Shown in pieces: positions 40,052-62,252 of a DNA stretch of 64,000 bases. Where the stretch lies: assembly GCF_032918005.1 (NCBI RefSeq), contig NZ_CP136628.1, positions 6,061,501 to 6,125,500 on the forward strand, in the 5' to 3' direction. The translations under genes and the position numbers were made by a program. How positions within the stretch are numbered: position 1 is the first letter of the stretch; each line of letters opens with the position of its first letter. The notes under the pieces are model-generated. The model had not been told where the DNA came from, ran no database searches, and saw only the letters and a program-made list of their open reading frames with translations. This stretch comes from Bradyrhizobium sp. NDS-1 (GTDB lineage: Bacteria > Pseudomonadota > Alphaproteobacteria > Rhizobiales > Xanthobacteraceae).

Positions 40052-40076
40052 GGAACGATCGCGTGAATGCGCGGTT
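40052..40076 (+). promoter_or_regulatory. EcfG-like general stress promoter
   Basis: GGAAC (40052-40056), 16 bases, GGTT (40073-40076). It lies 31 bp before the ATG of the His-rich protein gene, the expected position for a -35/-10 pair. Confidence 0.55.
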
Positions 40077-40107
40077 TAGATGTGCATTCGAATTGGAGGA
40101 GGACGTC

Positions 40108-40344
40108 ATGAAGAAGCTTGGTTATGTAATTGCGGCCCTGGGCGCGCTCGCGATCGCGGCGCCGACCCTCGCAAGTGCCGAGACGGTGGTGATCAAGCGC
40201 AGCGGCTATCACCATCATCATCACGGCCCGTACGGTGCTCGCGCCCAATACCGCACGCATCGCGACCACGGCTGGCATCGCGGCCACCATCGCGACAAGG
40301 TCGTGGTGATCAAGCGCGGCCATCGTCACCATCACTGGGACTAA
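40108..40344 (+). CDS. small secreted histidine-rich protein
   Basis: The 78-residue protein has a signal peptide (KKLGYVIAALGALAIAAPTLASA) and a mature part of about 55 residues with two His/Arg-rich blocks, each opened by VVIKR (VVIKRSGYHHHHHGPYG and VVVIKRGHRHHHWD). The histidines suggest metal binding or an acid-buffering periplasmic role, but this is a guess. A strong Shine-Dalgarno (GGAGGAGG) precedes ATG 40108. An EcfG-like promoter lies upstream and a terminator follows. Confidence 0.75.
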   Translation: MKKLGYVIAALGALAIAAPTLASAETVVIKRSGYHHHHHGPYGARAQYRTHRDHGWHRGHHRDKVVVIKRGHRHHHWD

Positions 40345-40358
40345 CGCAGAGTCATATG

Positions 40359-40388
40359 GAAATGGCCCCTCACGGGGCCATTTCTTTT
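40359..40388 (+). terminator. intrinsic terminator
   Basis: GAAATGGCCCC (40359-40369), loop TCAC, GGGGCCATTTC (40374-40384), then TTTT. It ends the His-rich protein gene and, because the hairpin is symmetric, may also act on the convergent aldo/keto reductase gene. Confidence 0.85.
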
Positions 40389-40409
40389 GCGTATCGAAAG
40401 CGCTTGGCG

Positions 40410-41228
40410 CTAGTCCCACTTCGGCGCAAAACCCGGATTGACGCAACGCCTGTCCTTCGGCAGCGCGGCGATCTTCCGGCGGTCGCCATCGTCGAGCGTG
40501 ATATTCAGCGCGTCGAGATTGGCTTGCTGGCTCTCACGGCGCGAGGCTTTCGGGATCGCGGCGACGCCGTCCTGGTCGAGCAGCCATTTCAGCGCCACCT
40601 GCGCAGCGGTCGCGTTGTGCCTGGCACCGATCTCGGCCAGCACCGGATCCGAGGCAATGCGCCCCTGCGCCAGCGGGCAATAAGCGACGAGCGGGATCGA
40701 CTTTGCCGCGAGATAAGCCAGCACCTTCGATTGATCGAGCATCGCGTGATATTCGATCTGATTGCAGGCGATCGGCGCCCTGACGTGCTCGACCGCGATC
40801 TTGAGCAGCGCCGTGGTGAAATTGGCGACACCGATGGCCCGCGTGCGCCCCTCCTCCTTCAGCTTCATCAGGGTCTCGAACACCGCACCCCAGTCCGCGG
40901 CCTTCGACGGCCAATGCACGAGATAGAGATCGACATGGTCGAGCCGAAGCTTCTTCAGGCTGGCATCGAAGGCACGCCGCATCGCGTCGGGGGTGAGGTT
41001 CTCGTGCCAGACCTTTGTCGTGACGTGCAGCTCGTTTCGCGGCAGACGGGACGCGGCGATGGCTGATCCGATCGGCTCCTCGTTCGCATACATCTCCGCA
41101 GTGTCGATGTGGCGATAGCCGATCGACAGCGCGCTCTCGACCGCGGCGCGGCAGGCATCGCCCTGCATGCGAAAGGTGCCGAGGCCGAGCTTGGGCATGC
41201 TGATGCCCTGTGTCTTCAGATTGTCCAT
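40410..41228 (-). CDS. aldo/keto reductase
   Basis: The 272-residue protein shows all AKR marks: MPKLGLGTFRMQG, GYRHIDTAEMYANEE with catalytic Asp and Tyr, TTKVWHENL with the lysine, LVHWPSK with the histidine, and CNQIEYHAML. It reduces carbonyls with NADPH, similar to 2,5-diketo-gluconate reductases. ATG 41228 starts MDNLKTQGISMPKLGLG; an in-frame start at 41324 adds a Pro/Ser-rich extension that looks non-coding. Confidence 0.92.
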   Translation of the reverse strand: MDNLKTQGISMPKLGLGTFRMQGDACRAAVESALSIGYRHIDTAEMYANEEPIGSAIAASRLPRNELHVTTKVWHENLTPDAMRRAFDASLKKLRLDHVDLYLVHWPSKAADWGAVFETLMKLKEEGRTRAIGVANFTTALLKIAVEHVRAPIACNQIEYHAMLDQSKVLAYLAAKSIPLVAYCPLAQGRIASDPVLAEIGARHNATAAQVALKWLLDQDGVAAIPKASRRESQQANLDALNITLDDGDRRKIAALPKDRRCVNPGFAPKWD

Positions 41229-41436
41229 GAACAGGCTCCTGACGTATTGCATCCCGCCGGACGCGCCGCGAGGCCGCGGGGACAGACTCTTCGGTGAAGG
41301 AAACGAGATGGCGGGAGCGGGCATCCTAGCGCGCCAGCAGCGCGGCGGCCAATCAAGATCGGGTTAGATGCGAGCCAGGCCAGTCATCATCATGGCCGGC
41401 TTGTCCCGGCATGACGACGAGGGCAGCGTATCCCCC

Positions 41437-43008
41437 TCACGAATGCTGCGCCACCACAGCCGGTCGCGCCTGTGGCTGCGGCGCGATGTCGACGGACCAT
41501 AGGCTGCGATTGTCGACGTCCTTCAACGTGACGGTCATGACGCCGCTGCGGCCATCGATGTCGACGCGGCCAAAAAACTGCAGTCCGAAACAGGGTGCCA
41601 GATTCTCGCCCTGCGCTGCGCTACAGCCGTTCTGGTACATCGCCGTCGGCCCGAAGGTATCGTCGAGTTCGCCCGGGCCCCAGCTCCCGGCGTGCAGCGG
41701 GCCGGAGACGAACTCCCAGAACGGCTCGAAATCCCTGAATTGTGCCTTGCCGGGATCGTAATAATGCGCGGCAGTGTAGTGCATGTCCGCGGTGAGCCAC
41801 ACCACGTTGCGGATTCCGGCGCACTTGATCGAGCTGAGAAGGTCGGCGATCTCGTGCTCGCGCCGGTCAGGCGCCCCATTGCCGAGCGCGACGGCATCGA
41901 GACTGACGAGGCCGATCGGCAAATCGGCGGCGATGACCTTCCACGTCGCGCGCGAGGCGGCGAGCTCCCGCTTCAGCCAGGCAAGCTGCTCGGAGCCGAG
42001 GATCCAGCCGCGACGGTCGCCGCCCTTGTTCCAGCTATCATCGCGATAGCTGCGCATGTCGATCATGAAGACGTCGAGCAGCGGACCGTAGCCGATGCGA
42101 CGGTAAACCCGGCTCTGCCGCGCGCCGAGATCACGGATCGGCATGAAGTCGAAGAAGGCGCGGCGGGCGCGCGCGACGAGGCGCGGGGTGCCGTCGTCCT
42201 CATGGCCGGCGTGATCATAGCTGCCGGTCGGCGACCAGTCGTTGGTGACCTCGTGGTCGTCCCACTGCGCGAACATCGGCACCTCCGCATGGAAGGCACG
42301 AAAGTTCTCGTCGAGATGGTTGTATTTGTAGTTGCCGCGGAACTGAGCCAGCGAGTGCGCGACTTCGGACTTCTCCTCGGTCACGAGGTTACGCCAGGTC
42401 TCGCCGTTGGGCAGCTTCTGCTCGGCAGGTATCGTGCAGTCGGCGTAGATGTGATCGCCGGAATGGATGAAGAAATCCGGACGGTTGTCGAGCATGGTGT
42501 GGTAGCTGCGATAGCCGCCGCGCGAGATGTCGATACCCCAGCCCTGCCCCGCGACGTCGCCCGACCACACGAATGAGATCGACTGGCGAGCTGCCGGCGC
42601 AGTGCGGAAATGCCCGAGACGGCTTTCGCCGCGAAGGCCGGTCGCGATGTCGTCGAAGCGGATGCGATATAAGACGTCCTGCCCGGGCGGCAGGTCGTCG
42701 AGCTGCAGCTTTGCGGTGAAGTCCGCATCGGGCAGCGCATCGCACGAGGCCGACGCCATGATGCTGAAGCTCTCGACGGTCGAGCACTCCACGTGCATCC
42801 GTGCGGCCCTGTCCGCGCGCGCCCAGATCACGGCGGAGCCATCGCAGACGTCACCGGACTGGATTCCGCCGGCGATTTGCGGACGATCGGCGGCGCGGCT
42901 GAGGTACGGGGTCGCGAGCGTGCCGAGCGAGGCAACCGCCAGGCTTGAAGTCGAACGGACCAGGAATTGCCGCCGGGTCCATGCGCGCGAAGCGCGGAGC
43001 GTTGCCAT
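41437..43008 (-). CDS. phoD: alkaline phosphatase D (PhoD) family protein
   Basis: The 523-residue protein has a Tat signal, TRRQFLVRSTSSLAVASLGT, and the PhoD order of motifs: GGIQSGDVCDGSAVIWARAD (N-terminal beta domain), FIHSGDHIYADCTIP, FAQWDDHEVTNDWSP with metal-binding aspartates and histidine, and VWLTADMHYTAAHYYDP. PhoD hydrolyses phosphate diesters and monoesters in the periplasm using Fe/Ca. No Pho box was recognised upstream. Confidence 0.92.
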   Translation of the reverse strand: MATLRASRAWTRRQFLVRSTSSLAVASLGTLATPYLSRAADRPQIAGGIQSGDVCDGSAVIWARADRAARMHVECSTVESFSIMASASCDALPDADFTAKLQLDDLPPGQDVLYRIRFDDIATGLRGESRLGHFRTAPAARQSISFVWSGDVAGQGWGIDISRGGYRSYHTMLDNRPDFFIHSGDHIYADCTIPAEQKLPNGETWRNLVTEEKSEVAHSLAQFRGNYKYNHLDENFRAFHAEVPMFAQWDDHEVTNDWSPTGSYDHAGHEDDGTPRLVARARRAFFDFMPIRDLGARQSRVYRRIGYGPLLDVFMIDMRSYRDDSWNKGGDRRGWILGSEQLAWLKRELAASRATWKVIAADLPIGLVSLDAVALGNGAPDRREHEIADLLSSIKCAGIRNVVWLTADMHYTAAHYYDPGKAQFRDFEPFWEFVSGPLHAGSWGPGELDDTFGPTAMYQNGCSAAQGENLAPCFGLQFFGRVDIDGRSGVMTVTLKDVDNRSLWSVDIAPQPQARPAVVAQHS

Positions 43009-43126
43009 TCAGGAAACCTTCGTCGAATCGCGACGGAAGGTGCCTGCGCTCCTTGACTCCCGGCTTACGGTTTCTTGACTCCGCGCCTACGGTTTTGCGA
43101 CGCGCGGATGACGGCTTCAGCCTCGC

Positions 43127-43546
43127 CTAATGCTTCCAGTTGCAGATGCCGCCGGAGCGGCACGGCCAGGTCTGGATGCGGGTATCCATTGCTTGCGCAT
43201 CCAGCGGGTTGCCGTGACGATGCGCAAGCTTCGCGCGAGCTGCGCCGCGCGGCTGGGCGGCCCTGGCGTGCGCGGCCTTGGGCTCGGCCCCACGGACGCG
43301 CTCGGCGGCAACCTTCTTCGGCACGTCGACCGGCTCGACGCGGGCCTGCGCCTCGCTGCCGCCACGCGCCTCCAAGGCTACCGGTGCAAACTGCGTCTCG
43401 GGCCCGAGCCGCTTCGGCGACAGCACCGCCTTGGAGAGATCGAGACCGAGATATTCACCGGGCTTGTAGTCGTCAGCGCGAGCGATGCCGCCGCCAGCGA
43501 GCATCAGGGCAACGGCAACTGCAAAATGAATGCTCTTCAGGACCAC
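43127..43546 (-). CDS. secreted hypothetical protein with Ala/Arg-rich middle
   Basis: The 139-residue protein begins with a signal peptide (LKSIHFAVAVALMLAGGGIARA), then DDYKPGEYLGLDLSKAVLSP, then an Ala/Arg/Lys-rich linker, and ends with TWPCRSGGICNWKH, where two cysteines may pair. GTG 43546 has AGGAGG five to six bases upstream, which supports translation. Family unknown; likely periplasmic. The upstream DNA is AT-rich and includes the palindrome CTCCTATTTAGGAG (43586-43599), a possible operator. Confidence 0.68.
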   Translation of the reverse strand: MVLKSIHFAVAVALMLAGGGIARADDYKPGEYLGLDLSKAVLSPKRLGPETQFAPVALEARGGSEAQARVEPVDVPKKVAAERVRGAEPKAAHARAAQPRGAARAKLAHRHGNPLDAQAMDTRIQTWPCRSGGICNWKH

Positions 43547-43655
43547 GGACGCCTCCTGAAACTGGATTATTAAAGGGGTAATTTACTCCTATTTAGGAGG
43601 CGCCGCGGCCAATTCCAGCGGTCAAGTGCCGCCGTGGTTAAGAAGTTTGGCGGTG

Positions 43656-44657
43656 TCATGCGACCTTTCGCGTCGCACCCGTCCCATCCAGGAACCCCAT
43701 CAGGCGGTTGCGGATGATCTGTTCCGCCTCGCCCATGATCCTGTCAATCAGCTCCTTGCAGGAGGGGATGTCGTGGATCAACCCAGCGACCATGCCGCAG
43801 CTCCAGGCGCCGGCGTCCATCTGGCCTTCGAGCATGATCTTGGGATAGACGCCCGCGACCTGGTCGTGGATGTCGTCGATCTTCAGTTTGTCGCCCTTCT
43901 CGCGCTCGATCTCGATGAGGCGATCGACATTGGCATTTCTCAGCACGCGCTCGGTGTTGCGCAAGCTGCGCATGATCAGGCGGGTATCGAGCTCGGTGGC
44001 CGCGACCAGCGCGTTCTTCACGTTCTGATGCACGGGCGCTTCCTTGGTGGCGATGAAGCGCGTGCCCATGTTCATGCCGGCCGCGCCCAGCGACAATGCC
44101 GCGACGAGGCTGCGCCCGTCGGCCATGCCGCCGGAGGCGACGAACGGGATCTTCAACTCCTCCGCCGCGCGCGGCAGCAGGATCATGTTGGGAATGTCGT
44201 CCTCGCCGGGATGACCGCCACATTCAAAACCATCGACGCTGACGGCGTCGCAGCCGATGCGCTCGGCCTTCAGCGAGTGGCGGACCGAGGTGCATTTGTG
44301 GATAACCTTGATGCCTGCGGCCTTCAGCGCCGGCATGTAGGCCTCCGGGCTGCGGCCCGCGGTCTCCACCGCCTTGATGCCGCCTTCGACGATGGCCGCG
44401 ATGTATTCGGGGTAAGGCGGCGCCGCGAAGGTCGGCAGGAAGGTCAGGTTCACGCCGAACGGCTTGTCGGTCATGTCGCGGCAGCGTGCGATTTCCTTCG
44501 CGAGCAATTCCGGCGTCTTCTGGGTGAGGCCGGTGATGATGCCGAGCCCGCCGGCATTGGACACGGCGGCGGCCAGTTCGGCAAAGCCGACGAAATGCAT
44601 GCCGCCCTGGATGATGGGGTGCTCGATGCCGAACAGCTCGGTGATCGCGGTCTTCAC
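43656..44657 (-). CDS. nitronate monooxygenase / 2-nitropropane dioxygenase family protein
   Basis: The 333-residue FMN enzyme has the TIM-barrel marks of the family: HPIIQGGMHFVGFAELAAAV, NAGGLGIITG, GCDAVSVDGFECGGHPGEDD with the active-site histidine, and VASGGMADGRSLVAALSLGA for phosphate binding. It oxidises nitronates such as propionate 3-nitronate, or acts as an enoyl reductase. It is transcribed alone on the minus strand. Confidence 0.88.
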   Translation of the reverse strand: MKTAITELFGIEHPIIQGGMHFVGFAELAAAVSNAGGLGIITGLTQKTPELLAKEIARCRDMTDKPFGVNLTFLPTFAAPPYPEYIAAIVEGGIKAVETAGRSPEAYMPALKAAGIKVIHKCTSVRHSLKAERIGCDAVSVDGFECGGHPGEDDIPNMILLPRAAEELKIPFVASGGMADGRSLVAALSLGAAGMNMGTRFIATKEAPVHQNVKNALVAATELDTRLIMRSLRNTERVLRNANVDRLIEIEREKGDKLKIDDIHDQVAGVYPKIMLEGQMDAGAWSCGMVAGLIHDIPSCKELIDRIMGEAEQIIRNRLMGFLDGTGATRKVA

Positions 44658-45097
44658 TTAGATACCTCCCGGGATTTTGATCAGGTTGGGTGCAGTCTAG
44701 CCGCAGTCTCGTGCCGCGGTCACCATTTCTCTCCGAAGGGTCGAAGGAGGTGCGATCCTGGCCGCGTAGGCGCTCGGGAGAGTCCCTCGAAGGATGTACG
44801 GCCCGGCCTCGTGAAGAACCCCCGCGGCCATCCGGGAACGCTATAACTCAAGAAAGAAGCGCGGCGTCATCAACGCCGCGCTTCATCTCGTCCCCACGGG
44901 AGACACTTGTCATTGCGTCTTCGTCCCGTGCCATTTCCCCAGGTCTGGCTTCACCTTGTCCGATCCTTGTTCCTTCTCCGGACTGCCTTGCCAGGCTTGT
45001 CCGTCAAGGCTTGTCCGTCCGTTTGCGCGATCCCCAGTCATTCTGATCCCGGGGATTCGTCGGTCGGCCGTTCCCTGCTCGTCGGATCGTCCCCTCG
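44658..45097. other. Non-coding interval with a minus-strand terminator
   Basis: No credible gene is seen. A hairpin with 11-bp arms, GAAGCGCGGCG (44856-44866) and CGCCGCGCTTC (44874-44884), is followed on the minus strand by TTTCTT. It could terminate transcription from the PRC-barrel gene. The remaining sequence has no obvious structure. Confidence 0.5.
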
Positions 45098-45472
45098 TTA
45101 CGCGAAGGGGACGCCGTAATAGGCATTGATGCGGCGCACGGCAGCGTCATCGCTCCAGTTCCACTGGGTCTGCTCGCCATATTTTGGAGCGCCTTCCAGA
45201 TCGCTGGCCGTGATTGCGGTAATATAACCGCCAAGCTCGGTGTCGTATTTCAGCGACTGCCAAGGCAACGGGTAGTGATCATTGCCGAGGCCAAGAAAGC
45301 CGCCGAAGCCGAGCACTGCGTAAGAGACCTTGCCAGTGATCTTGTCGATCATCACCCGCTCGATCGAACCGATCTTGTTTCGATCGGCACCGTAGACAGC
45401 GGTTCCCTCGACCTTGTCGCTTCCAATGAGCCGGCCCATCTCGTTCCGGTCCAGTTCGCCCTGATTCAGCAT
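45098..45472 (-). CDS. PRC-barrel domain protein
   Basis: The 124-residue protein has a PRC-barrel beta domain: GRLIGSDKVEGTAVYGADRN, KIGSIERVMIDKITGKVSYA and VLGFGGFLGLGNDHYPLPW. The C-terminal tail contains YGEQTQWNWSDDAAVRRINA. PRC barrels bind RNA, proteins or membranes; in rhizobia such proteins are common among stress-induced genes. ATG 45472 has GGAG seven bases upstream; ATG 45478 would leave no room for it. A divergent pair of EcfG-like promoters lies between this gene and the TPP enzyme. Confidence 0.85.
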   Translation of the reverse strand: MLNQGELDRNEMGRLIGSDKVEGTAVYGADRNKIGSIERVMIDKITGKVSYAVLGFGGFLGLGNDHYPLPWQSLKYDTELGGYITAITASDLEGAPKYGEQTQWNWSDDAAVRRINAYYGVPFA

Positions 45473-45502
45473 CGTCATTCTCCACTCAGGCATCTGTGAA
45501 TC

Positions 45503-45528
45503 AACCGCAAGGGGTGATCGATCGTTCC
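45503..45528 (-). promoter_or_regulatory. EcfG-like general stress promoter
   Basis: Read on the minus strand: GGAAC (45528-45524), 17 bases, GGTT (45506-45503). Transcription would start near 45496, leaving a short leader containing the GGAG ribosome site of the PRC-barrel gene. Confidence 0.6.
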
Positions 45529-45551
45529 GGCGTGCGTTTCGCAACAGCTTG

Positions 45552-45576
45552 GGAACATCGCCCCAAACAACCGGTT
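45552..45576 (+). promoter_or_regulatory. EcfG-like general stress promoter
   Basis: GGAAC (45552-45556), 16 bases, GGTT (45573-45576), 36 bp before the ATG of the TPP enzyme. It faces away from the neighbouring minus-strand EcfG-like promoter. Confidence 0.6.
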
Positions 45577-45612
45577 CTCCAGCTAACGAGGCCGAACCCA
45601 GAGCCGCCCGCT

Positions 45613-47421
45613 ATGTCCCAGACAGTCTCCGACTTCATCATTCAGCGTCTGCATCAATGGGGAGTGCGCCACATCTTTGGCTATCCCGGCGACGGCATCA
45701 ACGGCGTGTTCGGCGCGATGAACCGGGCCCAGGGAAAGGACCACAAGATCGGCTTCGTGCAGGCGCGGCACGAGGAGATGGCCGCCTTCATGGCAACCGC
45801 TTATGCAAAATTCTCAAGGGAGCTCGGTGTCTGCATTGCGACCTCCGGTCCCGGCGCTTCGCATCTCGTCACCGGGCTCTACGACGCGCTCCTGGATCAC
45901 CAGCCGGTGCTCGCGATCGTCGGCCAGCAGGCGCGGAACGCGCTGGGCGGGAGCTATCAGCAGGAGCTCGATCTCGTCTCGATGTTCAAGGACGTTGCCG
46001 GCGCCTACGTCATGCAGGCGTCCTCGCCTGCGCAAGTGCGGCATCTGATCGATCGCGCGGCGCGGATCGCGCTGGCGCGGCGGACCCCGACCGTGATCAT
46101 CCTGCCTAATGATCTGCAGGAAGAGCCTTACGAAGACCCGCCCCGCGCCCACGGCACGCTGCATTCCGGCATCGGCTACAGCGCCCCCAGCATCATGCCG
46201 CAGGAGGCCGATCTCGATCGCGCTGCGGAGATCCTCAATGCCGGCAACAAGGTCGCGATGCTCGTCGGCGCCGGTGCGCTTGGCGCCACCGACGAGGTGA
46301 TCGCCGTGGCAGATCGGCTGTCGGCCGGCTGCGCCAAGGCGCTGCTCGGCAAGGCCGCGCTGCCCGACGACCTGCCGTGGGTCACCGGCTCGATCGGCCT
46401 GCTCGGCACCGAGCCCAGCTACAACATGATGATGGAATGCGACACGCTGCTGATGGTCGGCTCCGCCTTCCCCTATGCCGAATTCCTTCCCAAGGAAGGC
46501 AACGCGCGCGGGGTGCAGATCGACATCGATGCCAGCATGATGTCGATCCGCTTTCCCATGGAGGTCGGCCTCGTGGGCGATGCCGCCGAGACCTTGCGCG
46601 CATTGCTGCCGCGACTGAAACGCAAAAGCGATGGCGCCTGGCGCCAGAGCATCGAAGAGGACGTTGCGGCATGGTGGAAGACGCTGGATGACCGCGCGCA
46701 CCAGCCAGCGGCGCCGGTCAATCCGCAGCTCGTCGCCTGGGAACTGTCCCCGCGGCTGCCCGATCGCGCCATCATCACCAGTGATTCCGGCTCATGTGCC
46801 AACTGGTTCGCACGCGACCTGAAGATGCGGCGCGGCATGATCGCCTCGCTCTCCGGCGGCCTCGCCTCGATGGGCGCAGCGGTGCCTTATGCCCTCGCCG
46901 CGAAGTACGCCCATCCGGATCGGCCGGTGATCGCCCTCGTCGGCGACGGCGCGATGCAGATGAACAACATGGCCGAGCTGATCACGGCCGCAAAGTACTG
47001 GCGCTCCTGGCGCGACCCGCGCTTCATCGTCTGCGTCTTCAACAACGAGGATCTCAACCAGGTGACCTGGGAGCAGCGCATCATCAACGGCGATCCCAAA
47101 TTCGAAGCCTCGCAGCGTATTCCCGACGTCTCCTATTCCCGCTTCGCCGAGCTCATCGGCCTGCGCGGCATCTTCGTCGACAGTCCACAGCGGCTCGGTT
47201 CGGCCTGGGAGCAGGCGCTGGCGAGCGAGATGCCCGTCGTGCTGGAAGTGAAAACGGATCCCGAAGTGCCGCCGCTGCCGCCGCATATCACGCTTCAACA
47301 GGCCAAGAACTTCTCGCTCGCCCTGATGAAGGGCGATCCGAACCAAAGCCGGATGATCAAGGGAGCGGCGCGGCAGGTGCTCGAAACGATCCTGCCCGGA
47401 AAGGAACGAGGTGAACCATGA
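45613..47421 (+). CDS. thiamine-pyrophosphate-dependent enzyme (pyruvate oxidase / acetolactate synthase-like)
   Basis: The 602-residue protein has the three-domain POX/AHAS architecture. The pyrimidine domain includes HIFGYPGDGINGVFGAM and the proton-relay glutamate in QARHEEMAAFMATAYAK. A middle domain follows (VAMLVGAGALGATDEVIAVA). The pyrophosphate domain contains the metal motif GDGAMQMNNMAELITAAKYW. It decarboxylates a 2-oxo acid such as pyruvate; PoxB-like activity in stationary or stressed cells is plausible. The C-terminal membrane-binding tail of E. coli PoxB is not recognisable. It overlaps the next small gene by ATGA. Confidence 0.86.
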   Translation: MSQTVSDFIIQRLHQWGVRHIFGYPGDGINGVFGAMNRAQGKDHKIGFVQARHEEMAAFMATAYAKFSRELGVCIATSGPGASHLVTGLYDALLDHQPVLAIVGQQARNALGGSYQQELDLVSMFKDVAGAYVMQASSPAQVRHLIDRAARIALARRTPTVIILPNDLQEEPYEDPPRAHGTLHSGIGYSAPSIMPQEADLDRAAEILNAGNKVAMLVGAGALGATDEVIAVADRLSAGCAKALLGKAALPDDLPWVTGSIGLLGTEPSYNMMMECDTLLMVGSAFPYAEFLPKEGNARGVQIDIDASMMSIRFPMEVGLVGDAAETLRALLPRLKRKSDGAWRQSIEEDVAAWWKTLDDRAHQPAAPVNPQLVAWELSPRLPDRAIITSDSGSCANWFARDLKMRRGMIASLSGGLASMGAAVPYALAAKYAHPDRPVIALVGDGAMQMNNMAELITAAKYWRSWRDPRFIVCVFNNEDLNQVTWEQRIINGDPKFEASQRIPDVSYSRFAELIGLRGIFVDSPQRLGSAWEQALASEMPVVLEVKTDPEVPPLPPHITLQQAKNFSLALMKGDPNQSRMIKGAARQVLETILPGKERGEP

Positions 47422-47645
47422 GCGACTTCCGCGATATCCAGCATGGCGTCAACGATCCCGTCGATGGCGTCGACGTGAAATACCACTTCAACGACAACAG
47501 GACGCCGCACGAGCGCGCACAACGCCACGCCGATGTGCGTGCCGATGCCACGGCCGTCCCCACTGAACCGTTTCTGCCCGAGCGGCTTCGACGCAAGCCG
47601 ACCGATCCCATCAATCCGCGCACCGGACGCAATCCAGCGGATTAG
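47418..47645 (+). CDS. small hydrophilic hypothetical protein coupled to TPP enzyme
   Basis: The 75-residue protein is highly charged and has no cysteine (GVDVKYHFNDNRTPHERAQR, then FLPERLRRKPTDPINPRTGR). Its ATG overlaps the TPP-enzyme stop, so expression should be translationally coupled. It is likely disordered. No family recognised; a partner or protective role is a guess. Confidence 0.72.
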   Translation: MSDFRDIQHGVNDPVDGVDVKYHFNDNRTPHERAQRHADVRADATAVPTEPFLPERLRRKPTDPINPRTGRNPAD

Positions 47646-47651
47646 TCCTTA

Positions 47652-47676
47652 GGAACCACGGCTCCCGCGGCCGGTT
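47652..47676 (+). promoter_or_regulatory. EcfG-like general stress promoter
   Basis: GGAAC (47652-47656), 16 bases, GGTT (47673-47676), 55 bp upstream of the DUF4142 start codon. Confidence 0.58.
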
Positions 47677-47731
47677 GGTCGGCGCAACATCGCGCGGCAC
47701 AAGGCTGCGCGCACAACCGAAGGGACTAGAC

Positions 47732-48283
47732 ATGAAACGGACCGTCATCGCCCTTGCCTGCGTGCTTCTCGCAGGCCCCGCCCTCGCCCAGTCGCTGGGC
47801 GAGAAGACCGGCATCAATTCGGCACTCGGCGTCGCACCTGCTACTGCGGATTTCGTCAAGGAGGTCGCGATCAGCGACATGTTCGAGATCGAGTCGAGCA
47901 AGCTCGCCCAGCAGAAGGGCAACGCTCAGGAGAAGAGCTTCGCACAGCAGATGGTGACGGACCACACCAAGACCAGTACCGAACTGAAGAGTCTCGTCAG
48001 TGACGGCAAGGTGCAGGCGACCCTGCCGACGGCACTCGACAGCTCGCACCATAGCAAGCTCGACAAGCTCAAGAACGCCACCGGCAAGGATTTCAGCTCG
48101 GACTACAACTCCTACCAGGTCAGCGCCCATGAAGATGCGGTGTCGCTGTTCGAACGCTACGCCAAGGGCGGTGACAATTCCGCGCTGAAGGACTGGGCCG
48201 GCAAGACGCTGCCGGCGCTCAAGCATCATCTTGTCATGGCCAAGGAGCTCGGCAAGGCGCCGAGTGTCGGCCAGACAAAGTAA
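47732..48283 (+). CDS. DUF4142 domain secreted protein
   Basis: The 183-residue protein has a signal peptide (KRTVIALACVLLAGPALAQ) and a four-helix ferritin-like DUF4142 domain: DFVKEVAISDMFEIESSKLA, SFAQQMVTDHTKTSTELKSL, and a final ALKDWAGKTLPALKHHLVMA. In rhizobia these periplasmic proteins are often stress-induced, but their biochemical role is unknown. A second, divergent copy lies at 51626. An EcfG-like promoter is upstream and a GC hairpin with 11-bp arms follows (48290-48325). Confidence 0.88.
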   Translation: MKRTVIALACVLLAGPALAQSLGEKTGINSALGVAPATADFVKEVAISDMFEIESSKLAQQKGNAQEKSFAQQMVTDHTKTSTELKSLVSDGKVQATLPTALDSSHHSKLDKLKNATGKDFSSDYNSYQVSAHEDAVSLFERYAKGGDNSALKDWAGKTLPALKHHLVMAKELGKAPSVGQTK

Positions 48284-48289
48284 CGCGTC

Positions 48290-48325
48290 GGACGAGGAGG
48301 CCGCCCCTCGGCGTCCTCCTCGTCC
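48290..48325. terminator. GC-rich hairpin after the DUF4142 gene, possible terminator
   Basis: GGACGAGGAGG (48290-48300) and CCTCCTCGTCC (48315-48325) form 11-bp arms just after the DUF4142 stop. There is no T-run, so termination strength is uncertain. Confidence 0.5.
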
Positions 48326-48499
48326 CCGGCAACGATGTCTTCTCTCCGTATGCCCGCAAGCTCACGATGATTCCGCTCGTCCATCCGGAGCAGCCTGCCG
48401 CACTCGTTTCGATCGATCCGCAGAGGCCACGAGCGCCGCAGAACGTTCATTGTCATACAGAATTTACAGAACGGTCATCATGGATAACTCGCCAGACCG

Positions 48500-49084: not shown

Positions 49085-49428
49085 CGGAATATCTGCTGCG
49101 CTTCATCGCCGGCGGGGTCATCGTCTCCGCCTTCGCGATCCTGGGAGACATGCTCAAGCCGAAGAGTTTTGCCGGGCTGCTCGGCGCGGCTCCGTCGGTC
49201 GCGCTGGCCACACTCAGCATCGCCGTCGTCCAGCACGGCCCGCAATATGTCGCCGCCGAAAGCTGGACGATGATCTATGGTGCCGTCGCACTTGCCTTCT
49301 ACAGCCTGGTCGTCTGCCATCTCTTGATGAGGTTTCGTCTCGGCGCATTGCCAGCCACCGTCGCCGCTTTTGCCGTATGGCTCGTCGTCGCCTTCGGTCT
49401 GCTCGCGGCCTTCGGAGGTGCTGCCTGA
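49081..49428 (+). CDS. small membrane protein, DUF3147-like (first of a pair)
   Basis: The 115-residue protein has about four hydrophobic helices (LLRFIAGGVIVSAFAILGDM, TMIYGAVALAFYSLVVCHLL, ATVAAFAVWLVVAFGLLAAF). The pattern PKSFAGLLGAAPSVALATLS is like DUF3147 proteins. Start and stop overlap both neighbours (ATGA with PAP2; TGATG with the next gene), showing a compact operon. Function unknown. Confidence 0.75.
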   Translation: MTEYLLRFIAGGVIVSAFAILGDMLKPKSFAGLLGAAPSVALATLSIAVVQHGPQYVAAESWTMIYGAVALAFYSLVVCHLLMRFRLGALPATVAAFAVWLVVAFGLLAAFGGAA

Positions 49429-50298: not shown

Positions 50299-50377
50299 TA
50301 CTCATCTTGAGACTTTCCCGTCTCTTGTGGAACTCCAACCAAGTTGGTTCGTTGAGTAATCTACTCAACCTACTCAA
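50299..50377. promoter_or_regulatory. Multi-site operator of TACTCA half-sites, overlapping EcfG promoter
   Basis: GTTGAGTA (50351-50358), three bases and TACTCAAC (50362-50369) form a perfect 8-bp-arm palindrome. Further TACTCA half-sites occur at 50299-50304 and 50371-50376; the last two half-sites are spaced nine bases apart. The array lies before a small DNA-binding-type gene at 50393, which fits autorepression. Confidence 0.6.
50329..50353 (+). promoter_or_regulatory. EcfG-type general stress promoter (exact consensus)
   Basis: GGAAC (50329-50333), 16 bases, CGTT (50350-50353). The -10 element overlaps the left arm of the GTTGAGTA/TACTCAAC palindrome, so a bound repressor would block it. 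Confidence 0.72.
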
Positions 50378-50392: not shown

Positions 50393-50641
50393 ATGCAAGA
50401 CCTTCGCGCCGAGCGGCTTCAGGTCATGCTCTCGCCGGAAGAGTTGGCCGCCGTTGACGATTTCCGGTTCAAGCATCGCATGCCGACGCGGGCGGCGGCA
50501 GTCCGCGAGCTCCTCAAGTTCGGACTGGCCGCCGCAGACGTCGATGCAGCCGCCGGCGTGAAGTCGAGCAGCTTCGGCGTGTTCGGCCGCGGAGCCGACG
50601 GACACACGCAGAGAGATCCCGAAAGCGGTGCCGAGGACTGA
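50393..50641 (+). CDS. small ribbon-helix-helix-like DNA-binding protein
   Basis: The 82-residue protein starts RAERLQVMLSPEELAAVDDF, a beta-strand then helix, followed by KHRMPTRAAAVRELLKFGLA, as in ribbon-helix-helix repressors. The Gly/Ser-rich C-terminal 25 residues look disordered. It may bind the TACTCA palindromes directly upstream of its own ATG (50393), controlling itself and the divergent small-protein pair. No toxin partner follows, so a toxin-antitoxin role is unlikely. Confidence 0.68.
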   Translation: MQDLRAERLQVMLSPEELAAVDDFRFKHRMPTRAAAVRELLKFGLAAADVDAAAGVKSSSFGVFGRGADGHTQRDPESGAED

Positions 50642-50810: not shown

Positions 50811-51029
50811 CTAGCTGCTCGGCGCGTCGCCGGAATCATCCGGCGTCATGCCGGAGCCCGGCGTCTTGCTCTTGTCATTCAGTCTGGGATCGCGCGTCGC
50901 CTCGCGTGACGGCGAGCCGTTCTGAGTTCTCTGTGGATCCGTCTTGTGCGCAGACTGCGCGCGCTGCTTGTCACGGGGCTGCTCCTCTCCCCGCTTATCC
51001 CTGACGATGCCGTGGTCGGAATGGGCCAT
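50811..51029 (-). CDS. small disordered hydrophilic protein
   Basis: The 72-residue frame is rich in Asp, Arg, Lys, Ser and Gln with no hydrophobic core (VRDKRGEEQPRDKQRAQSAH; the end is GMTPDDSGDAPSS). It looks like an intrinsically disordered stress protein. GAGGCGAAGG lies before ATG 51029, and a weak EcfG-like site (GGAAC-N16-CGTA on the minus strand, 51090-51066) is upstream. Family not known; it could be a chance frame. Confidence 0.52.
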   Translation of the reverse strand: MAHSDHGIVRDKRGEEQPRDKQRAQSAHKTDPQRTQNGSPSREATRDPRLNDKSKTPGSGMTPDDSGDAPSS

Positions 51030-51065: not shown

Positions 51066-51090
51066 TACGCACTGCGGCGCCGAATGTTCC
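51066..51090 (-). promoter_or_regulatory. Weak EcfG-like promoter
   Basis: On the minus strand GGAAC (51090-51086), 16 bases, CGTA (51069-51066). The -10 differs from CGTT at the last base. It lies 37 bp before ATG 51029 but falls within or near the neighbouring 43-residue gene's end. Confidence 0.3.
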
Positions 51091-51532: not shown

Positions 51533-51625
51533 GAAGCAAGACGTGGGGATGGAACTCTACCGTCGCAACCCGCTTTCCGATCGTAATGTTGAGGGAACTT
51601 TGCCTCCGATCCGCAATTGATCTCG

Positions 51626-52138
51626 ATGCGAGTTCTCGTCGCGATCATCCTGGCATTCATCAGCACCGCGGCGCTCGCCGACAGCACCGGCGAACGCAAG
51701 CCCGGCGAACGTCCGCCGAGCGCGATCGACGTCATCAGCGGTCTCTACAATTTCAGCCGCTTCCAGCAGGGCCTTCTGGAGAACACGGATTTGAAGGGCA
51801 ACGCCGAGGTCAAGAACCTCGCAGCCTTGCGCGCAGAAGAGGCCACCAAGCGCGACAAGGCGCTCAAGCAGATACAACAGGCGATCGGCGCGGAGCCACG
51901 CGTCGACAAGGCGTCGTCCGTCAGCGCGAGCCTGGTCGAGCCCGAAACTTCGGACGGACCGACTTACGTCCGAAGCTTCTACGCCTCGCAGATCCCGGAG
52001 TATGAATCCGCCATCGATCTGCTCGAACGCTATCTGAAGGCGCCCGACAACACCGCGCTCGCAGCGTTCGCGCGCGAGCAGCTCCCGATGCTGCGCGCGC
52101 AGGTCAGGGACGCCGAGCGCACCATGGCGGACAAGTAG
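51626..52138 (+). CDS. DUF4142-like secreted protein (second copy)
   Basis: The 170-residue protein has a signal peptide (MRVLVAIILAFISTAALA) and helices similar in order to the DUF4142 protein at 47732: ending SAIDLLERYLKAPDNTALAA and REQLPMLRAQVRDAERTMAD, parallel to VSLFERYAKGGDNSALKDWA and the final helix there. The first helices diverge. ATG 51626 is used; TTG 51617 is in frame. It converges on the Ser/Gly-rich protein gene with 6 bp between stops. Confidence 0.75.
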   Translation: MRVLVAIILAFISTAALADSTGERKPGERPPSAIDVISGLYNFSRFQQGLLENTDLKGNAEVKNLAALRAEEATKRDKALKQIQQAIGAEPRVDKASSVSASLVEPETSDGPTYVRSFYASQIPEYESAIDLLERYLKAPDNTALAAFAREQLPMLRAQVRDAERTMADK

Positions 52139-52144
52139 CAGCCT

Positions 52145-52450
52145 CTATTTGTCGTTCGAATGACGTTGCTGGCTCTGCGGGCGCACGGTGCGGTCGCTCT
52201 CCGGCATCTTGTCCCGGCCGGCGTCGCCATTGTCATCCTTGCCGCCCGAAGATGAGGTGCCACTGCCGCTCGGGTTCGAGCGGGTCGCCGCCCCCGTGGT
52301 CGGGGTATCCGCCCGCGAGCTGGCGGAGCTCGCGGCGGGATCGCCGGTCACCGCCCCGCGACCGCTGGGCGCACCGTTCTGCGCCAAGGCCGGCCCGGCA
52401 AACAGCATGGCGACGATCGCGAGTCCTCCTTTAGCAAGTCCTGCCCTCAT
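52145..52450 (-). CDS. small secreted Ser/Gly/Asp-rich protein
   Basis: The 101-residue product has a signal peptide (MRAGLAKGGLAIVAMLFAGP ending ALAQ). A low-complexity, probably disordered mature chain follows, with PSGRGAVTGDPAASSASSRA, SGTSSSGGKDDNGDAGRDKM and RPQSQQRHSNDK. The frame is open to 52621, but the signal peptide fixes ATG 52450. An EcfG-like promoter lies 23 bp before it on the minus strand, facing away from the hybrid kinase promoter. Confidence 0.7.
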   Translation of the reverse strand: MRAGLAKGGLAIVAMLFAGPALAQNGAPSGRGAVTGDPAASSASSRADTPTTGAATRSNPSGSGTSSSGGKDDNGDAGRDKMPESDRTVRPQSQQRHSNDK

Positions 52451-52472: not shown

Positions 52473-52497
52473 AACCACGAGGCCTGGCGCCCGTTCC
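52473..52497 (-). promoter_or_regulatory. EcfG-like general stress promoter
   Basis: On the minus strand GGAAC (52497-52493), 16 bases, GGTT (52476-52473). It drives the small secreted Ser/Gly-rich protein gene starting at 52450. Confidence 0.58.
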
Positions 52498-52564
52498 GGG
52501 ACGCTGCCGGAGACGACCGAACGAGGCGGGGGGCCGCCCACGCCATTTCTGTCCGAATTGGCAT

Positions 52565-52589
52565 GGAACCAAATCGCTCCATCGCCGTT
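52565..52589 (+). promoter_or_regulatory. EcfG-type general stress promoter (exact consensus)
   Basis: GGAAC (52565-52569), 16 bases, CGTT (52586-52589). It lies about 136 bp upstream of the giant hybrid kinase ATG and is the only clear promoter seen there. Confidence 0.7.
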
Positions 52590-52724
52590 GTTTGCATCGG
52601 GCTGAGCAAGGCAGGTTCCATTCTCGCGCCGCACCTTGGCGCTTGATTTCGAATTGGGCTGACGCTCTATTTCGACGAGATGCGTCACGCCTTGGATTCG
52701 GCCGGCGCCTGCGGGGGAATCAGT

Positions 52725-59021
<6,297 letters not shown>

Positions 59022-59034
59022 GTTGGATCCGAGA

Positions 59035-60525
59035 ATGGACCACGAAAAGGTCAACATCCTCCTCGTCGACGACCAGCCGGCAAAGCTGCTCGCCTATGAG
59101 GTGATCCTGAAGGATCTCGGCGAGAACCTCGTGATCGCCTCGTCCGGACGCGAGGCGCTGGAGCTGCTGCTCAAGACCGAGATCGCGGTGATCCTCGTCG
59201 ATGTCTGCATGCCGGAGCTGGACGGCTTCGAGCTTGCCGCAATGATCCGCGAGCATCCGCGCTTCCAGAAGACCGCGATGATCTTCATCTCCGCCATCCA
59301 GGTCAGCGACATCGACCGGTTGCGCGGCTACGAGATGGGCGCGGTCGACTACGTGCCGGTACCGGTCGTGCCGGAGGTGCTGCGTGCCAAGATCAAGGTG
59401 TTTGCCGAACTCTACCGCAAGACCCGCGAGCTCGAACGGCTGAACCAGGAGCTCGAGGATCGCGTCCGCGCACGCACGGCGGAGCTGGAAAACTCCACCG
59501 CGAAGCTGCGCGAGAGCGAGCAGCGGCGCAGCATGGCGATCGCCGCCGGCAAGATGGGCTCCTGGGATTGGGACTGGATCAGCGGCGACTGGATGTGGGA
59601 CGAGGGGCAGTATCGCATCTTCGGCGTCAGCCCCGAGAGCTTCGAGGTCAACCCGGCCAATGTCCAGGCGCTGTTGCATCCCGATGACGTCGATCAGTTG
59701 CGCAAGGCGATTGCCGAGTTCAACAAGGGCGCGCGGGCCTACGAGACCGAGTTCCGCATCATGCGGCCCGACGGAGAGGTGCGCTGGTGCGTTGGCACGG
59801 CGGCAGCAACGGTGGACGATAGCAGTCGCGTCGTGCGCGTGAGCGGCGTCACCGTGGACATCACCGAACGCAAGCGCGCCGAGGAGCGTCAGAATCTCTT
59901 GGCGCGGGAAGTCGATCATCGCGCCAAGAATGCGCTGGCTCTGGCGCAGTCGATCGTTCGCCTCACCCGTGCCGACGAGGTCAAGGCCTATGTGAGCGCC
60001 GTCGAGGGACGCATCAACGCGCTGGCGCGCGTGCACACCATCCTGTCGCTGTCGAGCTGGCAGGGCGCCGAGCTCTCCAGGCTGATCGACGAGGAGCTTG
60101 CGCCCTATTCGCTTGGCGGCCAGATCATGTTGGCGGGTCCGGAAGTCCAGTTGCTGCCGGCGACGGCCCAGACGCTGGCGCTCGCATTGCACGAGCTCTT
60201 CACCAACTCAGCCAAGTACGGCGCCCTCTCGACGAGGTCGGGACGGCTCACGATCGGCTGGCAGGTCGAAGATCAAGTGCTCACGCTGAACTGGGAGGAA
60301 TCCGGCGGTCCGCTGGTCATGACTCCGAAATCTCGCGGCTTCGGCACCCGGAGCCTGCTCGCGAGCGTCGAGTCCCAGCTCGGCGGACAGGCGCGGTTCG
60401 ATTGGCGAGCCGAAGGCCTGTTGTGCCGTCTGGAGGTGCCGCTGACACGCAAGACGGCGGCGACGGCCGTATCGGGTAAATTCGAAGAGGCCGGCTCTGC
60501 CGAATTGCAGCGCGCGTCCGGTTAG
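59035..60525 (+). CDS. response regulator/PAS/HWE-family histidine kinase
   Basis: The 496-residue protein starts with a receiver domain (NILLVDDQPAKLLAYEVILK; VILVDVCMPELDGFE with Asp56). A coiled coil and a PAS domain (about 165-280: GSWDWDWISGDWMWDEGQYR, ending SGVTVDITERKRAEE) follow. It ends in an HWE-type kinase core: LLAREVDHRAKNALALAQSI with His295, and LALALHELFTNSAKYGALST. HWE/HisKA_2 kinases often phosphorylate PhyR in the alphaproteobacterial general stress response. It begins 13 bp after the giant kinase and probably acts with it. Confidence 0.9.
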   Translation: MDHEKVNILLVDDQPAKLLAYEVILKDLGENLVIASSGREALELLLKTEIAVILVDVCMPELDGFELAAMIREHPRFQKTAMIFISAIQVSDIDRLRGYEMGAVDYVPVPVVPEVLRAKIKVFAELYRKTRELERLNQELEDRVRARTAELENSTAKLRESEQRRSMAIAAGKMGSWDWDWISGDWMWDEGQYRIFGVSPESFEVNPANVQALLHPDDVDQLRKAIAEFNKGARAYETEFRIMRPDGEVRWCVGTAAATVDDSSRVVRVSGVTVDITERKRAEERQNLLAREVDHRAKNALALAQSIVRLTRADEVKAYVSAVEGRINALARVHTILSLSSWQGAELSRLIDEELAPYSLGGQIMLAGPEVQLLPATAQTLALALHELFTNSAKYGALSTRSGRLTIGWQVEDQVLTLNWEESGGPLVMTPKSRGFGTRSLLASVESQLGGQARFDWRAEGLLCRLEVPLTRKTAATAVSGKFEEAGSAELQRASG

Positions 60526-60605
60526 AGAGCATTTGCAGCGAAGTGGAGATCGTTTTCGCGTTGAGAAAGCGCGTCAAGACGAGAATCGAGAGCTTCCGTT
60601 TCGAT

Positions 60606-60848
60606 TCAGCCGGAATGGGAGAAGCTCCGGCCGGACGCCGCGCTCGTCATACGTTGCACCATCCGCGGTTCGCGCGCGACCCGGCCTTCGAGCCAGGCTT
60701 CCGTTCGGGCGAGATCGCGGAGCGCCTTGGCATAGCGGCGGGCCGCGCTTCGCTCCGCGCCTCGCGGCAGCTTGCGCGCCTTGCGCAACATGTCCGCGGC
60801 GGCGTTGCGATAGGCCAGTGAGCGGTAAAGAAAGACTACCTTGCCCAT
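60606..60848 (-). CDS. small basic hypothetical protein
   Basis: The 80-residue protein begins MGKVVFLYRSLAYRNAAADM and continues with LRKARKLPRGAERSAARRYA and KALRDLARTEAWLEGRVARE. It is helical and strongly basic. The frame continues upstream to 61241, but ATG 60848 begins the plausible protein and has GGGAC at a fair distance. Family not recognised. Confidence 0.6.
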   Translation of the reverse strand: MGKVVFLYRSLAYRNAAADMLRKARKLPRGAERSAARRYAKALRDLARTEAWLEGRVAREPRMVQRMTSAASGRSFSHSG

Positions 60849-60937
60849 ATCGAATGTCCCGTTTTGATAGCGCCCATCCTCGCAAGGCCGGCATGAACGT
60901 CGGATGAAGCCGGTGATGACAATTCCTTCATTTATTT

Positions 60938-60962
60938 GGAACCAGCAACTATTGCCCGCGTT
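60938..60962 (+). promoter_or_regulatory. EcfG-type general stress promoter (exact consensus)
   Basis: GGAAC (60938-60942), 16 bases, CGTT (60959-60962). Transcription would begin near 60970, which places the in-frame ATG at 60966 inside the promoter and supports the start at 60990 for the gene downstream. Confidence 0.7.
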
Positions 60963-60989
60963 TGCATGCCAGATCGGGATGCTGTTCCC

Positions 60990-61247
60990 ATGCGCGCAAA
61001 AAAGTCGTCGGACCTGATCTCCGCTGCCGGCCTCATCAAGCTGATGACGCATACGATGATGGGCGCGGCCCTCGGCCTCGCCTTCAGTCTCGCGCTGATC
61101 CTGTGCAATCCCGCCGTCGCCCGCCTGCTCGATCACGGTGGAAGCCAGGCCGCGATCGTTTTTGCCCTCACATTGGTGACGACGTTCGCGATCGGCGCGA
61201 CCCTCACCGGCGTGGTGTTCATCATCACAGAGGACAAGCAATCTTGA
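60990..61247 (+). CDS. small two-helix membrane protein
   Basis: The 85-residue protein has two hydrophobic helices (MMGAALGLAFSLALILCNPA and AAIVFALTLVTTFAIGATLT), a charged start (MRAKKSSD) and an acidic C-terminus (ITEDKQS). It is likely an inner-membrane protein of unknown function. ATG 60990 is preferred to 60966 because of the exact EcfG promoter just upstream and GGGAT nine bases before it. A terminator lies about 115 bp downstream. Confidence 0.7.
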   Translation: MRAKKSSDLISAAGLIKLMTHTMMGAALGLAFSLALILCNPAVARLLDHGGSQAAIVFALTLVTTFAIGATLTGVVFIITEDKQS

Positions 61248-61360
61248 AGCGAGGTGAAGCCGGGCAGATGCTTCGTCGGGAACTCCTGTAGTAAAGGCGA
61301 TTGACTGCCTGCGTCAATTTAACTCAGGAGTTTTTCGCATGCAGGCTCAGGCGCCCTCTC

Positions 61361-61388
61361 AAAAACCCGCGCCGGCGCGGGCTTTTTC
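61361..61388 (+). terminator. intrinsic terminator
   Basis: CCCGCG (61366-61371), CCGG, CGCGGG (61376-61381) with AAAAA before and CTTTTT after. It can act in both directions: for the membrane-protein gene on the plus strand and the small-protein pair on the minus strand. Confidence 0.8.
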
Positions 61389-61439
61389 GTCTCGATGATC
61401 GATCGGGAATCGCGGGTATCGGCGAGCGCCCGCATCAGC

Positions 61440-61640
61440 TCATTGCAGCCGGCGCTTGGAGCCGAGGCTCACAGAATTCATCTTCACGAGATGCTCGAGC
61501 TGCGCCCGCTTGCGTCCGATCAGAAGTTGGGCCGCTGCATCATCGAGACCCGCGCGCTGCAATTGCCGGATGGCAGAGCCCAGTTCGAGAATCTCGGCGC
61601 GCAACCTCAAGATCCGGTAAGTGTCCGGCTCTTCCTCCAT
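61440..61640 (-). CDS. small helical hypothetical protein
   Basis: The 66-residue protein (MEEEPDTYRILRLRAEILEL, then GSAIRQLQRAGLDDAAAQLL and KRAQLEHLVKMNSV) looks like an alpha-helical hairpin. It follows another small gene after 15 bp on the same strand, so both are probably driven from the LexA-box promoter at 61937-61965. No family recognised. Confidence 0.68.
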   Translation of the reverse strand: MEEEPDTYRILRLRAEILELGSAIRQLQRAGLDDAAAQLLIGRKRAQLEHLVKMNSVSLGSKRRLQ

Positions 61641-61655
61641 GGCGCCCCCAAGCTT

Positions 61656-61877
61656 TCAGCGCCGTGTGCTCGCGCGCTTGGGATCGCCGACCGACTTCAC
61701 GGAACGAAGCCGCATCCGGCCGCGGACGTCAGGCAGGACATCGCCGCCGCCGGCAGCCTTCCATTCGCCGACCAACAGATTGATCTTCAGCCGCAAATCC
61801 ATCTGCGCCAAGGCTTGCTCGGTGCAATCGCGATCGCCGTTGATGCGATCGCGCACGGCGGCCTCGACGTCGGCCAT
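61656..61877 (-). CDS. small hypothetical protein behind a LexA-box promoter
   Basis: From ATG 61877 the protein has 73 residues (MADVEAAVRDRINGDRDCTE, then LAQMDLRLKINLLVGEWKAA and a basic tail). GAGG lies six bases upstream. The frame is open to ATG 61931 (91 residues), but that ATG lacks a ribosome site, sits at the predicted transcription start and adds an AT-rich stretch. Family unknown. The promoter contains GAAC-N7-GAAC, so SOS induction is likely. Confidence 0.65.
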   Translation of the reverse strand: MADVEAAVRDRINGDRDCTEQALAQMDLRLKINLLVGEWKAAGGGDVLPDVRGRMRLRSVKSVGDPKRASTRR

Positions 61878-61936
61878 TTCTAGCCTCAAGGCACTGATTT
61901 TACGTCGAATTTCATTAATTCTATTGTCCATGACTT

Positions 61937-61965
61937 GTTAGAACAAAATAAGAACATATAGTCAA
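61937..61965 (-). promoter_or_regulatory. sigma-70-like promoter with LexA (SOS) box
   Basis: On the minus strand TTGACT (61965-61960), 17 bases and TCTAAC (61942-61937) form a good promoter. GAAC at 61941-61944 and at 61952-61955, seven bases apart, make the alphaproteobacterial LexA site, which overlaps the -10 and spacer. Bound LexA would block this promoter and perhaps that of the divergent gene at 61993. Confidence 0.68.
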
Positions 61966-61992
61966 GTCACGATTTCAGGACGGAGAAGCCAG

Positions 61993-62187
61993 ATGCAGGT
62001 TCAAGGCAAATACAACGCCAGGGTCTTCCTCACCGAGCAGATGACCCGGGCGCAGTCGCTGAGGCTGAAACGGCTGAGCGAAGAGGCGTATCAGCCCGCA
62101 CAATATGCGCGCGATCTGTCCTTCACCGAGGCGGCACGTCGCATCCAGGTACTGGAAGCGGAGATCGAGCTGGCAAATTCCTTCTAG
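61993..62187 (+). CDS. DUF3072-like small protein
   Basis: The 64-residue protein contains TRAQSLRLKRLSEEAYQPAQ and DLSFTEAARRIQVLEAEIEL. This matches the DUF3072 pattern of a short helical motif in which an ATP-like 'xxQxxxLxxLxxEA' helix precedes 'TKAEAxxxIxxL'. Function unknown. GGAGAAG lies eight bases before ATG 61993. It diverges from the LexA-box gene, so it may share SOS control. Confidence 0.72.
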   Translation: MQVQGKYNARVFLTEQMTRAQSLRLKRLSEEAYQPAQYARDLSFTEAARRIQVLEAEIELANSF

Positions 62188-62226
62188 GCTGCGGCCCGCG
62201 CCCGGAATGTCGGGTACGCAGCTTTC

Positions 62227-62252
62227 GGAACCATGCCCCGGGTCGAACGGTT
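62227..62252 (+). promoter_or_regulatory. EcfG-like general stress promoter
   Basis: GGAAC (62227-62231), 17 bases, GGTT (62249-62252), 24 bp before the ATG of the Lys/Arg-rich protein gene. Confidence 0.55.

Follow-up and report, generated by a model that had tools for sequence, protein, structure and literature searches.

In a stretch of 64,000 nucleotides (nt) from Bradyrhizobium sp. NDS-1 (NZ_CP136628.1, positions 6,061,501 to 6,125,500; hereafter the window), the segment from 45.1 to 62.6 kb, together with the outlying gene g41 at 40 kb, can with high confidence be read from its sequence as a conserved general-stress regulon cluster of Bradyrhizobium, predicted to comprise eleven units started by EcfG. 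EcfG, also named RpoE2 or SigT, is the general-stress sigma factor of Alphaproteobacteria. Its use at these promoters is very likely, judging from the motif, its position and conservation and the presence of EcfG, NepR and PhyR in the genome. The reading is supported by the density of the motif compared with the genome, by boxes kept at a fixed distance while the spacer between them changes, by an on/off contrast between genes, by a natural deletion of g47, by the same promoter layout at the EcfG, NepR and PhyR genes and by a different promoter at a neighbouring extracytoplasmic function (ECF) sigma gene.

The pattern GGAAC-N16/17-SGTT occurred exactly nine times in the window, always between 40052 and 62252 and at the places and on the strands reported in an earlier note on this DNA; the first 40 kb had no match. 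Dinucleotide shuffles of the window gave a mean of 1.44 matches and a maximum of 5, and none of 100 shuffles reached nine. A wider pattern (NGTT or CGTA) gave eleven matches, namely the nine SGTT sites, a CGTA site at 51066-51090 on the minus strand and an AGTT site at 2683; the 14-kb stretch to the right of the window had no NGTT or CGTA site. The whole genome (one contig, C1, of 7,645,890 bases) contained 226 SGTT matches, or about 1.89 per 64 kb, in agreement with the earlier note's rough estimate of two by chance. An equal density throughout the genome, which that note had named as evidence against a cluster, was not found: 0.66 matches were expected per 22.2 kb and nine were observed. Among the 209 of 226 sites whose positions were listed, the densest place consisted of 11 copies of a 582-bp coding repeat (C1:6192359-6198203), and excluding the window and this repeat no more than four matches fell within 22.2 kb. 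The near-identical 582-bp units were seen in the region C1:6190000-6200000, within a minus-strand open frame of about 2986 amino acids (aa); eleven units have an EcfG-like match, attributed to chance.

A crude codon-based gene caller placed eight of the nine window sites between genes and 25-170 nt ahead of a gene start, compared with 14 of 40 sampled sites elsewhere (Fisher p 0.004). The ninth, at 52565, lies 115 nt ahead of a possible g56 start at 52680, the caller having picked a later start; with this alternative start, the proposal that every full match lies upstream of a gene and faces it holds for all nine. Only 15 of the 40 sampled sites were called intragenic, indicating that the caller is lenient and misses genes in short fragments.

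Conservation of the sites was analyzed in upstream sequences from named loci around g57 (L004-L083, the best 80 of 581 and almost all labelled Bradyrhizobium), from relatives' loci (L085-L173) and from twelve 20-kb stretches (L194-L205). The NDS-1 genome was excluded, orthologues were taken at more than 55% identity and identical sequences were counted once; a site was scored when GGAAC-N16/17-NGTT or CGTA lay no more than 160 nt upstream. The predicted promoters and genes are listed below in window coordinates, with the fraction of upstream sequences carrying the site.

40052..40076, plus strand: EcfG-type promoter of g41, 56 nt before the start; GGAAC-N16/17-NGTT in 20/20 distinct upstream sequences
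40108..40344, plus strand: g41, 78-aa His-rich protein with a signal-like N-terminus; mini_HHHH match below cut-off
45098..45472, minus strand: g46, PRC-barrel protein (PF05239, 3e-11)
45503..45528, minus strand: EcfG-type promoter of g46; 18/18
45552..45576, plus strand: EcfG-type promoter of g47-g48, divergent from g46; 9/10
45613..47421, plus strand: g47, thiamine-diphosphate enzyme, pyruvate oxidase-like (NF006129, 1074 bits, cut-off 724)
47418..47645, plus strand: g48, 75-aa protein, 4-nt overlap with g47
47652..47676, plus strand: EcfG-type promoter of g49; 12/12 (11 TGTT, 1 GGTT)
47732..48283, plus strand: g49, DUF4142 exported protein (PF13628, 6.5e-43)
50329..50353, plus strand: EcfG-type promoter of g52; NGTT 44/51, NNTT 51/51
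50352..50377, plus strand: possible operator of g52, over its -10 box and start region; three TACTCA/TGAGTA repeats
50393..50641, plus strand: g52, 82-aa possible ribbon-helix-helix regulator
50811..51029, minus strand: sm72, 72-aa hydrophilic protein
51066..51090, minus strand: variant EcfG-type promoter GGAAC-N16-CGTA of sm72; 52/53; same -10 box at this genome's phyR
51594..51618, plus strand: variant EcfG-type promoter GGAAC-N16-AATT of g54; NNTT at N16/17 in 51/51 relatives, NGTT or CGTA in 11/51
51626..52138, plus strand: g54, second DUF4142 exported protein (PF13628, 7e-9)
52145..52450, minus strand: g55, 101-aa exported low-complexity protein
52473..52497, minus strand: EcfG-type promoter of g55; 26/31
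52565..52589, plus strand: EcfG-type promoter of the apparent g56-g57 operon; NGTT 43/65, GGAAC 99% identical over 65 upstream sequences
52680..59021, plus strand: g56, hybrid kinase with an uncertain start (2113 aa at most); 11 or more HAMP repeats, GAF, HisKA, HATPase, three receivers
59035..60525, plus strand: g57, REC-PAS-HWE kinase, HRAKN motif at residue 295 (PF07536, 5e-22)
60938..60962, plus strand: EcfG-type promoter of g59; 49/50
60990..61247, plus strand: g59, 85-aa protein with two hydrophobic stretches
62227..62252, plus strand: EcfG-type promoter of g62; 49/49
62277..62555, plus strand: g62, DUF6496 protein, 42/92 residues Lys/Arg (PF20106, 1e-26)

The motif thus preceded most or all orthologues of g41, g46, g47, g49, g52, sm72, g55, g56, g59 and g62. 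It was found in none of the upstream sequences of g40 (12 sequences), g42 (17), g43 (9), g44 (12), g45 (13), g50 (41), g51 (39), sm43 (54), g57 (81), g58 (50), g60 (46), g61 (51), g63 (44) and g64 (46), and it was close to absent before the PAP2 gene (1/14) and g53 (2/54); g48 gave 4/12. Counts on the opposite strand were high where units diverge (g46/g47, g55/g56 and g58/g59). The earlier list of nine sites and a weaker one at 51090 on the minus strand was borne out, the weaker site proving to be a real GGAAC-N16-CGTA promoter candidate. The list had missed the conserved site at 51594-51618, which is taken as the eleventh promoter since all g54 upstream sequences carried it under the looser NNTT -10 box.

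In alignments made blind to the motif (ten sites), the -35 pentamer GGAAC was 96-100% identical to the window and the last three letters of the -10 box 87-100%; identity was 41-73% in the spacer, 28-78% in the 25 nt upstream and 32-84% between the -10 box and the start. Upstream of g56 in distant loci of the elkanii/jicamae type, GGAAC was present in 19/19, with NNTT at 16/17 in 11/19 and opposite-strand matches in 3.

DUF6496 had 12 matches in 10 of 121 genomes across the order. Three Bradyrhizobium upstream sequences (that of NDS-1 included) carried an NGTT site and one close match from another family (L261) a GATT variant, and no EcfG-type site was seen upstream of eight more distant or paralogous DUF6496 genes. 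The 40052 site is genuine but parted from the other sites by g42-g45, whose orthologues lack the motif. The site was present in 25 of the 30 rows of the g41 set (NDS-1 included), the remaining five being paralogues of at most 53% identity. Directly 5' of the g41 promoter, at window positions 40016-40031, lies the palindrome CTGAACAGCCGTTCAG, a close form of which occurred in 23 of 26 g41 upstream sequences. Palindromes of the CTGAACAGCCGTTCAG type also precede g41 paralogues that have no EcfG site, and are a candidate site for a regulator.

In loci lacking g47 the promoter lay directly before g48 in 4/6 cases and in g47-bearing loci in 0/14 (Fisher p 0.003); with same-sequence loci merged the figures were 4/5 and 0/8. 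Two further site-bearing modules were found in relatives between g45 and g46, a HlyD-like gene in 8 of the 12 stretches and a gene for a 52-aa protein in 3 (for example, both at L196:10694-12285); neither was seen between g45 and g46 in NDS-1. Of the 83 BGTT sites in the twelve stretches, 65 had a listed gene 20-170 nt downstream, 11 preceded the two extra modules (the three 52-aa sites being counted under the HlyD-like module) and 7 fell elsewhere, one of these ahead of a g55-like frame. Single promoter-plus-gene modules are gained and lost between species. The genes that were found hold the same relative order in all twelve stretches, and within 10 kb of g57 the named loci, some of them cut short, contained orthologues of g59 in 50/80, of g62 in 49/80 and of g52 in 43/80. 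A mobile genomic island was considered and rejected, since the window has no tRNA gene and gene order is kept in the twelve stretches; no mobility domain (integrase or transposase) was detected in the cluster proteins scanned. The cluster is best read as conserved, modular and slowly changing, and not as a mobile island. The general stress response island proposed earlier for 45-62.6 kb therefore stands as a conserved cluster in which 10 of 20 genes have their own site, but not as a mobile element.

The strongest alternative accepts EcfG-dependent promoters and denies the clustering any meaning, the stress genes having been gathered by chance in a tolerant region. We consider this a serious contender, although somewhat short of an even chance. 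It agrees with modules that come and go (HlyD-like and 52-aa genes in some stretches, g47 absent in several), with the unrelated functions of the genes and with g58, g60 and g61, which lack sites. It does not sit well with the common gene order, with the recurrence of g59, g62 and g52 near g57 or with the presence, inside the cluster, of a kinase of the PhyR-activating class.

The genome encodes EcfG, NepR and PhyR. EcfG (C1:998685-999230) shares 99% identity with its orthologues in several relatives, and the next ECF sigma factor of this genome among the matches listed is 39% identical to it. The nepR gene (NepR domain, 6e-16) precedes ecfG and phyR is divergent from them; this locus is unlinked to the cluster, lying 5.1 Mb away along the contig, or about 2.5 Mb if the chromosome is circular. 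In 24 Bradyrhizobium rows (NDS-1 included), GGAAC-N16/17-NATT was found before nepR in 24/24 and GGAAC-N16/17-CGTA before phyR in 17/24 (CGTN in 20/24); several other families have CGTT in both places. On this comparison, the core stress genes share the promoter layout of the cluster, with variant -10 boxes.

At 19440-20923 the window also contains an ECF sigma gene (the 19561 gene) together with a zinc-finger-type anti-sigma gene. It is very improbable that the cluster promoters belong to another ECF sigma factor, notably this one. Its product matches PhyR_sigma2, shares 39% identity with EcfG across most of its length and is encoded about 25 kb from the cluster; its own upstream region, on the other hand, has GGAATA followed 15-17 nt on by GTTAT in 20/20 genomes including NDS-1 (GTTATG in 19/20), and GGAAC occurred in none of these 20 stretches. 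No gene had more than one upstream sequence with a GGAAT version of the cluster motif, and nepR-ecfG and phyR have the GGAAC layout, as the cluster does. The 19561 sigma factor was therefore rejected as the reader of the cluster promoters because of its different own promoter.

Chance clustering of a short degenerate motif can be dismissed: the motif shows no genome-wide excess over a backward-read control pattern (226 against 255), so that many matches outside the window must be chance, but nine in 22.2 kb was reached in 0/20,000 simulations with 216 uniform sites (maximum 8) and the two boxes are kept at fixed positions amid diverged spacers. A regulon of over 100 genes would be expected to have sites elsewhere in the genome, and some of the matches there are probably genuine.

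Several observations weigh against a conserved EcfG cluster. The relatives are not independent, and an unrelated pentamer, CAAGG, is kept before g64 in 45/45 and before g57 in 47/80. Control spacers also match by overlap (12-13 nt in 29/51 for g52, 20-21 nt in 8/65 for g56), and a shifted control pattern, GAACG, matches in 18/38 for g55. Loose NNTT sites occur before the PAP2 gene in 13/16 (AGAAC in the window, 48400-48499) and before g63 in 31/44 (62931-62992), and ten of the 20 genes of the cluster lack a site of their own. In Bradyrhizobium, nepR-ecfG and phyR themselves bear variant -10 boxes and not the exact motif, and the genome encodes nine HWE kinases, g57 among them, with g57 lying far from phyR. 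Given the retention of unrelated pentamers and the identity between the -10 box and the start, the case for the EcfG cluster rests on both boxes together, their spacing and the contrast between genes; the ambiguous loose sites before the PAP2 gene and g63 make its border soft.

The promoter at 52565 probably places the poly-HAMP hybrid kinase g56 and the HRXXN kinase g57 under EcfG. By its HWE domain (PF07536) and HRAKN motif, g57 falls by sequence in the PhyR-activating HRXXN class, and the closest solved sequence is 6ph4, a blue-light-activated histidine kinase (4e-40). In the published sections consulted, PhyR is a target of HWE/HisKA_2-family HRXXN kinases in Sphingomonas (PMC5898713) and is phosphorylated in vitro by an HWE LOV kinase (PMC4438053). 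We infer that g57, alone or with g56, may feed PhyR, which would create a feedback loop. The site C1:1994158 was considered as a possible EcfG-type promoter of another HWE kinase, whose kinase domain lies at 1996373, but was dropped, since no open frame of more than 300 aa starts within 400 nt of it.

For g52, family profiles and a sequence search returned no match. The TACTCA/TGAGTA pattern over its start region is kept in 37/50 relatives. It is conceivable, although we regard it as doubtful, that the cluster forms an evolvable stress module complete in itself: EcfG would induce its own sensor pair (g56 to g57 to PhyR) together with a small repressor, g52, which would shut off its own unit by binding over the start site. 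Positive and negative feedback on the general stress response would then lie side by side, and single promoter-plus-gene cassettes would be swapped between species.

In the proposed mechanism, stress would lead to phosphorylation of PhyR, phosphorylated PhyR would titrate NepR away and free EcfG, and free EcfG would guide RNA polymerase to GGAAC-N16/17-NGTT promoters and their CGTA and NATT variants. Eleven units would then be started at once. Envelope or exported products would include the PRC-barrel protein g46, the DUF4142 proteins g49 and g54, g55, g59 and g41; further units would supply the pyruvate-oxidase-like enzyme g47, the basic DUF6496 protein g62, hydrophilic sm72, the possible small regulator g52 and the g56-g57 kinase operon. 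The analysis puts forward eleven units as likely targets of EcfG, mostly of unknown function and ten of them in one deletable 17-kb block, and offers in g57 one concrete candidate sensor, among the nine HWE kinases, for the general stress response of Bradyrhizobium. It also suggests that motif scans in Bradyrhizobium should include CGTA and NATT as -10 boxes.

The cluster was not mentioned in the literature found, in the sections available; the published arrays of B. diazoefficiens USDA110 lie outside that scope, so this is no proof of novelty. The PhyR/EcfG regulon of USDA110 (Gourion 2009), a strain of the same genus with the same sigma factor, is cited in a passage of a later paper as more than 100 genes (PMC8092242), and some genes of the cluster are probably already in the published B. 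diazoefficiens arrays. The EcfG-dependent promoter of bll6649 of USDA110 has been used as a tool, according to the section seen. The kind of system is known; what appears to be new, within the same limits, is its clustering, the kinase operon embedded in it and the variant forms of the -10 box.

The sites resemble those of the alphaproteobacterial EcfG regulon in the -35 box GGAAC, a -10 box around GTT, the 16-17 nt spacer, the closeness to gene starts and the same layout at phyR and the nepR-ecfG locus. In the portions of the papers covered, the published consensus is GAAC-N16,17-C/GGTT (PMC4814048) or GGAAC-N17-20-GTT, the latter with CATT, AATT and AGTA endings among its listed promoters and with an EcfG-dependent PRC-barrel gene (PMC6599016). 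The arrangement differs from that of S. melonis, in which the numbered target genes, in the part of the record consulted, are spread with few small runs, whereas here eleven sites fall within 22 kb. Compared with the HRXXN PhyR-activating kinases (PakA-G and LOV kinases), g57 is alike in its HWE domain, HRAKN motif and PAS domain, and unlike them in its N-terminal receiver, in apparently sharing an operon with a poly-HAMP hybrid kinase and in the EcfG-type promoter ahead of that operon.

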